From contig NZ_JABBEA010000013.1 of assembly GCF_012912005.1 (NCBI RefSeq), positions 62,001 through 126,000 on the forward strand: DNA of 64,000 bases, written 5' to 3'. How positions within the stretch are numbered: position 1 is the stretch's first letter; every line of letters begins with the position of its first letter. The DNA comes from Paenibacillus sp. SZ31 (lineage in GTDB: Bacteria > Bacillota > Bacilli > Paenibacillales > Paenibacillaceae). The notes under the pieces were generated by a model. It was given only the letters and a program-made list of their open reading frames with translations, was not told the DNA's origin and did not search any database. This document shows, piece after piece, positions 13,615 through 61,551 of this stretch. The translations under genes were made by a program, and so were the position numbers.

Positions 13615-13684
13615 GTGCGTGTTCAAAAGGACCGGTTTTCAGTATCCTTCGTAATCAAAAGCGGTTTTTTTGAACAACCTCTAA
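13615..13684. repeat. Palindromic element, family 2, solo form
   Basis: GTGCGTGTTCAAAAGGACCG (from 13615) pairs with the mirror arm ending in GAACAACCTCT (to 13682) around a short TATCCTTCG loop. The two arms are nearly identical to the outer ends of a 220-bp element at 21257, from which the interior is missing here. The T-rich 3' arm could act as a terminator for nusB. Confidence 0.75.
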
Positions 13685-20805: not shown

Positions 20806-21255
20806 ATGAAAGGACAAAGACACATCAAGATTCGTGAAATCATTAGTCAAAATGAAATTGAGACCCAGGATGATCTGGTTGAATCATTGCGCCAATCAGG
20901 TTTTCAGGTGACTCAGGCGACGGTATCCCGGGATATCAAGGAACTTCTGTTAATCAAGATACCGATGGATGACGGACGGTACAAGTACTCTTTACCGACA
21001 GATCAACGATATAATCCGATTCAAAAGTTGAAGCGTGCACTCGTGGACAACTTCCTGCACATTGATCACACGAACAATCTGGTTGTGATGAAATGTTTGC
21101 CAGGAACAGCCAACTCCATTGCAGCTTTACTTGATAATATTGAGTGGAATGAAGTCATGGGCACGATCTGTGGAGATGACACCATCCTCATTATCTGCCG
21201 GACTGAAGGTAACAGCGTGACCGTTATTGAACGCATCATGGGTTATATTGCTTAA
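20806..21255 (+). CDS. argR: Arginine repressor ArgR/AhrC
   Basis: ArgR is a hexameric repressor of arginine synthesis and activator of catabolism, with arginine as co-repressor. The 149-residue protein has the winged helix ([32 protein letters not shown]) and the C-terminal oligomerisation and arginine-binding domain ([29 protein letters not shown]), with the Gly-Asp-Asp that contacts arginine. ATG 20806 follows ACTGGAGG. It precedes recN as in Bacillus subtilis, separated by a large palindromic element. Confidence 0.97.
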
Positions 21256-21256
21256 A

Positions 21257-21475
21257 GTGCGTGTTCAAAAAGATCGGTTTTCAGTACCGAGAAGATGGGA
21301 TGAAGCTAGAAGTGGAGTAGCGGAGCGTAGGGAAAACTACGTGAGCAACTGCAATGTTTCCGAAGGAAACATACTTCGTAAGCATCCCACTTATTTCGGC
21401 TAAATTCCATATTCGATGCTGATGATGCCACCAGGCATCCTTCGTAATCAAAAGCGGACTTTTTGAACAACCTCT
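21257..21475. repeat. Palindromic element, family 2, full form
   Basis: The outer arms GTGCGTGTTCAAAAAG.. (21257) and ..CTTTTTGAACAACCTCTT (to 21475) match the solo element at 13615. Nested inside are GATGGGATG pairing with GCATCCCAC, a GTTTCC-GAA-GGAAAC hairpin and CTTCGTAAGCAT. The run GGAGTAGCGGAGCGTAG and the hairpin-CGTAAGCAT unit also resemble parts of family-1 copy 3 at 45375-45425, so the two families share modules. It fills the whole argR-recN gap. Confidence 0.75.
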
Positions 21476-21533
21476 TAAATCAATGGTTCAAAAACATAAT
21501 TTCTGAGTTAGTCATCCGGAGGTGTTTTTGCAG

Positions 21534-27014: not shown

Positions 27015-27116
27015 ATTACGAGAACGAATAGGACAGAGAGAACCTGAAGATGTGGGTCTAAAAGCTTTCTGTAAGAAAGCTTCTTCGGAAGCCGAGGCTC
27101 CACCTCTATACCCATA
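27015..27116. repeat. Degenerate family-1-like palindromic remnant
   Basis: The stretch holds GAACGAATAGGACAGAGAG, like GAACGGAGAGGACAGAA of copy 3, then CTAAAAGCTTTCTG.AAGAAAGCT as in the copy-3 insert, then CTTCGGAAG, all enclosed by TGGGT/ACCCA. The standard GGGGATAAC core is absent. Probably a decayed or recombined member. Confidence 0.5.
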
Positions 27117-27131
27117 ACGTTAAAATACAGA

Positions 27132-27175
27132 AAAACCGCTACTTATCAGGAGTTAGTCACCTGTAATAGCGGTTC
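27132..27175 (-). terminator. Terminator of the FlxA-like gene
   Basis: AACCGCTA (27135-27142) pairs with TAGCGGTT (27168-27175); on the minus strand the stem is followed by TTTTTC. Confidence 0.65.
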
Positions 27176-33784: not shown

Positions 33785-33979
33785 CTATATAAGTTGAAAT
33801 AATCATTTACACGATAACGGAGAGGACAGAAAAAATCTGAAAAAGCGAAGCGGTCGCCTTTATCACCGGATTTTCCCTTAAGAAAAAGGGAATCGAAAAA
33901 ATCTGGGGATAACAGGGATTGGAAGATTGTTCTGTCATCGTAGTGTCAGTGTAAATAAACTCTAATTCAACTTATATAG
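33785..33979. repeat. Palindromic element, family 1, copy 2
   Basis: The 195-bp element is bounded by CTATATAAGTTGAA (33785) and its complement TTCAACTTATATAG (to 33979). Inside, TTTACAC and GGACAGAA pair with TTCTGTC and GTGTAAA. The core has GCGAAGCGGTCGC, then CCGGATTTTCCCTT paired with AAGGGA...AAATCTGG, then GGGGATAACAGGGAT. It fills most of the 395-base gap between the reductase and the papain-like gene. Confidence 0.85.
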
Positions 33980-45315: not shown

Positions 45316-45547
45316 ATATATAAATTGAGCTAATCCTTTACACAAGAACGGAGAGGACAGAAATAACCAAGAGAAGCGGAGCGTTCGCCTAAAAGCTTTC
45401 TGAAAGAAAGCTGCATCGTAAGCATAAGCTATCACCAAATTTTATCTATTAGTTAAAGAAATCAAAAAAATCTGGGGATAACAGCGATCGAAGGGTTGTT
45501 CTGTCATTGGAGTGGTTAGTGTAAATATTCTTAGTCCATTTATATAT
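45316..45547. repeat. Palindromic element, family 1, copy 3 (with insert)
   Basis: The 232-bp element is bounded by ATATATAAAT (45316) and ATTTATATAT (to 45547). GGAGAGGACAGAA pairs with TTCTGTC and TTTACAC with GTGTAAA. The core has GCGGAGCGTTCGCC, then an insert CTAAAAGCTTTCTG.. with an AGCTTTCT-GAA-AGAAAGCT hairpin and CATCGTAAGCAT, then AAATCTGGGGATAACAGCGATCG. It lies between mciZ and nudF, ending 28 bases before nudF. The rest of the 347-base gap is AT-rich and has no gene. Confidence 0.82.
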
Positions 45548-54355: not shown

Positions 54356-54451
54356 CCCTCCCTGCCACCTCCCAGTATATTTACTACAAACGTTTGGAAA
54401 CGGGAGGATGACTGGTAGCGAAGGGATGGAATCGGTCAAAAGGAGCGAAGC
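54356..54451. repeat. Truncated 5' half of a family-1 element
   Basis: This stretch, from CCCTCCCTGCCACC to AAAAGGAGCGAAGC, is a near copy of 54631-54728, the 5' half of the complete element downstream. Both have CAAACGTTTGGAAACGGGAG and GGGATGGAATCGGTCAAAAG. The match stops in the middle of the GCGAAGCGTTCGC hairpin, and no 3' arm follows. Confidence 0.75.
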
Positions 54452-54501
54452 ATGAGGGTTCATCTAAGGGGATACATAAGCAACACAGGCGGCAGATTAG
54501 A

Positions 54502-54540
54502 CCTGAAGAAGCGAAGCGTTCGCCTTTGTCTCCAAATTTC
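54502..54540. repeat. Isolated family-1 core fragment
   Basis: CTGAAGAAGCGAAGCGTTCG, as in copy 1, followed by CCTTTGTCTCCAAATTTC. The GGGGATAAC half is missing. It lies between the truncated and complete copies. Confidence 0.55.
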
Positions 54541-54654
54541 TACACAACTGTAGTCTAGACGGTCCCAGAAGACAACTCCAAAGTCATAGAATTTTGAGCA
54601 AAATAACCCCAAAAAGCTTTTCTTTCAATTCCCTCCTGCCCACCCATCCCAGCA

Positions 54655-54864
54655 TATTTATTTCAAACGTTTGGAAACGGGAGGACGATGGGCAGCGGAG
54701 GGATGGAATCGGTCAAAAGGAGCGAAGCGTTCGCCTTTAGCACCGGATTTCCTCCTTGAAAAGGAGAGTTCAAGAAATCCGGGGATAACAGCGACCAATG
54801 ACCGATCCATCCCGCAGCACTAGTACAACCTCCCGATCTTTTTCCAACCCGTTTGTAATAAATT
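54655..54864. repeat. Palindromic element, family 1, copy 4
   Basis: The outer stem ATTTATT.CAAACG..TTGGAAA (54657 on) pairs with TTTTTCCAACCCGTTTG.AATAAAT (to 54864); the inner stem GGGATGGAATCGGTC (54699-54714) pairs with GACCGATCCATCCC (54799-54812). The core has GCGAAGCGTTCGC, CCGGATTTCCTCCTT paired with AAGGAG..AAATCCGG, and GGGGATAACAGCGA. Together with the two partial copies it fills the 691-base gap between sigF and spoVAA; no gene is seen there. Confidence 0.85.
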
Positions 54865-61368: not shown

Positions 61369-61387
61369 CCAATTAATAACGAAAGCA

Positions 61388-61551
61388 ATCCTTCAGGGCA
61401 GGGTGCGATTCCCTACCGGCGGTGATGCAGGAAGTGTAAGGACACAAGTCCAGCACTTGATGCAAAGTCCGTGACCTGTCTGCCTATGGCAGATGGCTGA
61501 TCTGGTGTAATTCCAGAACCGACAGTATAGTCTGGATGGGAGAAGGAGAGG
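61388..61551 (+). ncRNA. FMN riboswitch (RFN element)
   Basis: The RFN aptamer is complete: CTTCAGGGCAGGGTG at the 5' end, TTCCCTACCGGCGGTGATG, AGTCCGTGACC, GGCAGATGGCTGATCTGGTG, AATTCCAGAACCGACAGTAT and AGTCTGGATGGGAGAAGGAG at the 3' end. It binds FMN and represses the riboflavin genes downstream. A terminator lies about 250 bases further on. Confidence 0.96.

Follow-up and report, generated by a model that had tools for sequence, protein, structure and literature searches.

A mobile MITE-like repeat family of Paenibacillus with an inner slot rewritten in place between two fixed sequences

Between argR and recN, the Paenibacillus genome studied here carries a MITE-like element of a repeat family (family 2) in which a single inner slot is rewritten precisely and in place, at resident copies, between two fixed sequences: the pentanucleotide GGACA and a 44-nt hairpin cassette. 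The family is also mobile, as demonstrated by target site duplications (TSDs) and by empty sites in relatives. We think it probable that family 2 is made of MITEs moved by an outside transposase, that the slot is rewritten, likely by copying from a donor, and that internal deletions turn some copies into remnants. The window referred to throughout is the whole stretch of DNA analysed, 64 kb forming part of one contig of a 6.48-Mb genome.

The long form of the element, 218 bp and non-coding, occupies positions 21257–21474 of the plus strand, a slight refinement of the 21257–21475 given in the first-pass annotation. It has a TTAAA on either side: the left one (21252–21256) overlaps the argR stop codon at 21255, the right one (21475–21479) was placed from the empty-site comparison and the copy catalogue, and the relatives' empty sites contain a single TTAAA. 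recN lies on the other side of the element. Alignment conservation defines the terminal inverted repeats (TIRs), GTGCGTGTTCAAAAAG on the left (21257–21272, plus strand) and GAGGTTGTTCAAAAAG on the right (21459–21474, minus-strand reading), which are imperfect inverted repeats of each other. The interior contains AGCGGAGCG (21319–21327), which precedes hairpin 1 (GCGTAG...CTACGT, 21325–21342, from the consensus fold), followed by the exchangeable cassette (21350–21393) with its tail ACTTCGTAAGCAT, replaced by GGACA in the 179-bp copies; all three are on the plus strand. The cassette hairpin has a 3-nt loop and a stem pairing 21354–21361 with 21365–21372. Only chance open reading frames of at most 58 residues are found in the 218 bp, and no transposase gene.

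The host genome holds 33 complete copies with near-identical ends, and the full and short forms already recognised in the first-pass annotation fall there into three size classes: 216–218 bp (n = 10), 177–180 bp (n = 15) and 43–67 bp (n = 8). The further copies it expected in related genomes are indeed there: matches occur in 28 of 59 relatives, nearly all within the genus Paenibacillus, with carriers that include P. tundrae, P. xylanexedens, P. amylolyticus, P. taichungensis, P. illinoisensis, P. barcinonensis and others, the home group being P. amylolyticus/xylanexedens. The TIR core TGTTCAAAAAG is present 81 times in the host genome, versus 6 for its reversed control. The copies are dispersed and about 92% alike. 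All those catalogued in the host genome lie between genes, none inside a long reading frame, and their orientation relative to genes is near even (about 11 co-directional, about 13 opposite).

A perfect 5-bp TSD flanks 15 of the 33 copies, whereas 5000 shuffles gave 1.4 on average and never more than 7; the duplications are A+T-rich and belong to a TNNNA/T set, and a recognisable TSD is missing in about a third of the copies. When the two flanks are joined and used as a query, ten relatives of the closer set prove to lack the element at the argR-recN site, five of these matching at 92–94% identity. The site is occupied in the host genome by the 218-bp form and in G002 by a mid form of 178 bp, and is also filled in two more genomes, G027 with the long form and a P. 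amylolyticus strain with the mid form. Short and non-coding, bordered by TIRs and a TSD, and with empty sites at both argR-recN and nusB-folD, family 2 has the properties of a MITE. At one locus (L502), three family-2 copies are present in duplicated segments whose flanks are 93–94% similar, and their cassette states differ.

The TIRs and TSDs point to a DDE-type transposase acting in trans, which would insert the element with 5-bp A+T-rich duplications. No autonomous partner with matching ends was found in the host genome, in a genome from another Paenibacillales family (G051), in viral contigs or in 80 loci of 8 kb. Among all 81 exact TIR cores, the orphans proved to be AraC-type genes, chance matches or truncated ends; the two DDE_Tnp_1 genes of the host are without family-2 ends; the end-like matches in viral contigs came down to one 329-bp element on a prophage contig (L105), with no transposase; beyond the end of the single-ended G051 elements lie host genes; and the candidates in the 80 loci have degenerate family-2 ends. 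The plasmid matches of P. cellulosilyticus are unannotated there. A Y1 transposase (PF01797; IS200/REP-type) is absent from the host genome, the control genomes being positive, and a REP/RAYT origin was rejected on this ground.

The sole difference between the long and mid forms is the slot lying between GAGCAAC and TTTCGG. It is filled either by the 5-nt GGACA or by the 44-nt stretch, whose 8-bp hairpin is followed by the tail ACTTCGTAAGCAT and which ends in CTTCGTAAGCAT. Mixed long and mid states were found at 13 of the 32 orthologous sites represented by no fewer than two genomes or copies, in a non-random sample whose loci were picked because they resembled the long form or fitted a conserved pattern, and with one of the 13 consisting of duplicated segments inside a single locus. 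Complete single-contig genomes are among these mixed cases. Outside the slot, identity is 97.8% for mixed pairs and 98.2% for same-state pairs, as compared with 91.9% when the copies come from different sites. In the 15 nt on either side of the slot, with one pair used per site, mismatches come to 1.8% in mixed pairs (12 sites), 1.5% in same-state pairs and 6.2% between different sites (P = 3e-5). The copies L016 and L043, for example, are in opposite slot states and differ by one outer base, while L021, L341 and L342 form a mixed set with a common right-end lesion. Mapped onto a tree built from the outer sequence, the cassette state requires 15 changes, much like the 17.1 of shuffled labels (89 of 500 shuffles were as low).

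Plain deletion or insertion of the cassette was rejected as the source of this variation: GGACA is absent from the long form, and the sequence CGGACA is identical in all 74 mid copies examined, so the mid state does not result from repeated independent deletions. In the consensus fold, the two fillings pair differently with one and the same left arm, GAAATGGAGT, and the hairpin shape is thus kept through the switch. Two family-2 relatives have the hairpin module elsewhere, near the left end (L053) or inside hairpin 1 (L105).

How could a resident copy be rewritten so neatly? Neither insertion alone nor excision alone can give the GGACA alternative, and templated copying is therefore invoked, the most likely route being copying from another family-2 copy. 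Strands of two dispersed copies would pair, ordinary mismatches would be corrected to the resident sequence, and the palindromic cassette, extruded as a hairpin, would escape correction and alone be retained. In yeast, palindromic loops are known to escape mismatch repair. One point against donor copying is that ectopic conversion normally drags flanking differences along, and no excess of these is seen within about 15 nt.

A less likely explanation, to which we still give some weight, is that the hairpin unit is a tiny mobile element entering and leaving the slot by a dedicated and precise mechanism, with no homologous donor. The switch boundaries are precise, and the unit is present in at least three unrelated settings: at two points of family 1, at two or three of family 2 (the central slot, L053 and L105), in the G051 elements, and as solo or tandem copies at atpA-atpG and infA-rpmJ. 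However, GGACA is not removable by insertion, nor could excision bring it back without variation in all 74 copies; moreover, the stems differ by family instead of being common to both, and the genome is devoid of the Y1 (IS200/REP-type) transposase. Comparably doubtful is the broader proposal that the unit and its CTTCGTAAGCAT tail are an independent nano-scale cassette with its own precise exchange, which would have spread to several unrelated MITE families and to essential operons, at atpA-atpG and infA-rpmJ.

The recurrence of interior modules in family-1 copy 3, pointed out in the first-pass annotation, holds well above chance. AGCGGAGCG is found again at 45375, and the window has 7 occurrences of AGCG(A/G)AGCG where 0.8 would be expected; the module of 21350–21393, a hairpin followed by CGTAAGCAT, is found again at 45389–45431 of the plus strand, after the hairpin GCGGAGCGTTCGC. 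A second covariance model, trained on family-2 copies alone in order to avoid circularity, recovers this copy with E = 2.5e-8, and another in a truncated family-1 copy (27058–27100, plus strand) with E = 5.8e-6. Across the 64 kb, this family-2-only model gives nothing further at E 0.1 except a self-hairpin on the other strand, and its matches to the solo and array copies are weaker. With the module covariance model, about 66 good places are obtained in the host genome: family 2 accounts for 11, family 1 and its remnants (27058 apart) for about 52, the truncated copy at 27058 for 1, and solo units for 2. Two positions are used in family 1: in about 19 copies the module occupies the loop of the small GCGAAG/CTTCGC hairpin, and in about 33 it directly follows the hairpin GCGAAGCGTTCGC. 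Covariation of the module stem amounts to 42 two-sided changes, with 99.4% of cells paired and six one-sided cells. Among the 59 relatives, 41 have the module, in up to 92 copies.

The stem reads ATGTTTCC in family 2 and AGCTTTCT in family 1. Since the stems are family-specific, they do not demonstrate a recent exchange between the two families, and judging from the sequences the sharing would be old or convergent rather than recent traffic. The suggestion of nested and exchanged modules consequently survives in its first half, with the module sitting in the family-1 hairpin loop, and is not borne out in its second, what is frequent being the replacement of the module at resident family-2 copies; as for growth by insertion into each other's loops, whole elements are not seen inside one another.

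Family 1 is itself near-palindromic (222–375, 33797–33950 and 45330–45520), and its outer arms change together between copies, GAGTGCAG/CTGCACTC in some versus GAGGACAG/CTGTCATC in others; at 27030–27160, a copy is cut down to the left half and the module, without the right half. In G051, family-2-like ends on both sides enclose a family-1-like AGCGGAAGCGTTCGCC core, and in another version the module replaces this core. Five G051 loci (L242, L246, L252, L260 and L268) have mirrored ends GAGCGTGTTCAAAAAG and a family-1-like core, with and without the hairpin module. Further along the window, at 54370–54780, two 82-nt direct repeats (TCCCAG..AAACGTTTGGAAACGGGAGGA..) 277 bp apart each lead into a family-1-like AGCGAAGC core, suggestive of a third hairpin family, of larger size and partly duplicated. 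An FMN riboswitch (Rfam RF00050, 104 bits) lies at 61385–61551.

Arrays of the module are found only at atpA-atpG, outside any MITE; family 2 has either a single cassette or GGACA. In the host genome, the atpA-atpG gap contains one module, immediately upstream of the atpG ribosome binding site; in relatives there are arrays of two to about six, and in an outgroup none (the gene names at this gap and at infA-rpmJ were read by eye from translated starts). The stems of these arrays differ (TTTTGAC/GTCAAAA, TTTGGC/GCCAAA). The infA-rpmJ gap has a similar unit and a degenerate second copy (L334). L332 and L366–L388 (atpA-atpG) and L334 (infA-rpmJ) bear one to about six units of hairpin and CTTCGTAAGCAT, and on the sense strand of many units ATGCTTACGAAGTAG/TAA stands ahead of the hairpin, that is to say a start codon, three codons and a stop.

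Ordinary long-tract gene conversion, or recombination between strains, would swap the whole element or its neighbourhood, and copies that are dispersed and some 92% alike offer many pairing partners for it. Mixed pairs nevertheless retain their site-specific outer variants, as in L016/L043 and L021/L341/L342, and show no extra differences within 15 nt of the cassette, so that we place this explanation a little below that of a dedicated mechanism. Far less credible is that the element is a functional cis-acting RNA, a regulator or terminator under selection and not mobile. It is true that its fold is much more stable than that of shuffles (z = -5.9 as RNA), that some stem positions covary and that the module stem does so strongly. 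Yet the value is similar as DNA (z = -5.5), as is expected of a near-palindromic element and so of any palindromic MITE; orientation to genes is random, TSDs and empty sites are present, and a search of Rfam with the element matched no family. The search for an intrinsic terminator yielded a single weak match, on the minus strand, which shuffled sequences equalled.

The short form behind nusB (13615–13681 of the plus strand, refined from 13615–13684) is a 67-bp internal deletion derivative in the nusB-folD gap. Its outer ends are near-identical to those of the argR-recN element, as had been noticed (91% over 34 nt and 93% over 42 nt). At this site, an outlying relative (G001) has an intact 179-bp element, the 67-bp form is shared by the host genome and six others, all seven being closer, and the site is empty in G003, G012 and G013. 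The simplest history is a single insertion followed by an internal deletion; of the two earlier options for the interior, deleted or inserted, the first is the one retained, since the intact element in G001 makes an ends-first, interior-later order wrong. Internal deletions in this manner leave short end-to-end remnants, of which the nusB copy is an observed example, and the other short copies of the host genome, whose sizes spread from 43 to 60 bp, are probably separate deletions. That end-only short elements are ancestral, with interiors inserted later into their loops, is the least tenable of all the readings: both ends are indeed common to short and full forms, but the nusB site has the 179-bp form in the outlying relative and the short one in the seven closer genomes, and the unequal lengths of the other short copies fit separate deletions.

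Small repeats built of modules, BOX among them, were described decades ago, and the route by which modules are gained or lost is unsettled. Family 2 offers a dozen orthologous sites at which one and the same change, from one fixed sequence to the other, is sharply bounded, and this makes the mechanism testable: either donor copying, with a palindromic loop evading mismatch repair, or dedicated insertion. The presence of the unit both in transposons and in atp and ribosomal operons suggests a host motif carried by the transposons, or one that the transposons seeded.

In the literature on Paenibacillus MITEs and intergenic repeats, as far as our search went (it covered few subscription journals), family 2 was not found. 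REP/REPIN sequences (RAYT, Y1) are small hairpins with a conserved flanking tag and many copies, like the hairpin unit; the difference is that the host genome has no Y1 transposase and that family 2 has 5-bp TSDs and TIRs. REPs are not known to have either. Correia elements (NEMIS) of Neisseria and ERIC of enterobacteria are intergenic MITEs with TIRs (PMC10969869). Family 2 resembles them in both respects. Correia and ERIC elements exist as full and internally deleted forms. To our knowledge they share no sequence with family 2, and we know of no inner-hairpin exchange between their resident copies. The bcr1/bcr repeats of the Bacillus cereus group are described as interspersed repeats of 100–400 bp with a mean of 39 bcr1 per strain and a 5-bp A+T-rich motif, TTTAT, tied to mobility (PMC6542083). 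Both bcr1 and family 2 belong to Bacillota and reach tens of copies, but the host group differs, TTTAT falls outside the TNNNA/T set, and this description includes no alternating inner cassette for bcr.

By analogy, the closest precedent would be the pneumococcal BOX elements. In Streptococcus pneumoniae and S. suis, BOX repeats are short, lie between genes, do not code for protein and have TIRs and TSDs; boxA and boxC are fixed on the outside and the inner hairpin boxB is optional, leaving the rest of the fold undisturbed; at the same site, module content varies by strain, and BOX clusters with other repeat families (PMC3049150). Family 2 likewise has fixed ends around an inner module that may be present or absent at a given site (13 of 32 mixed). 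The two were compared by description rather than by sequence, and on that basis boxB forms a tandem array, whereas the family-2 slot alternates between GGACA and one hairpin, with a hairpin unit that is common to a second repeat family and to solo and tandem sites. What family 2 would add to BOX is thus a two-state slot in place of an array, and a module common to repeat families and host operons.
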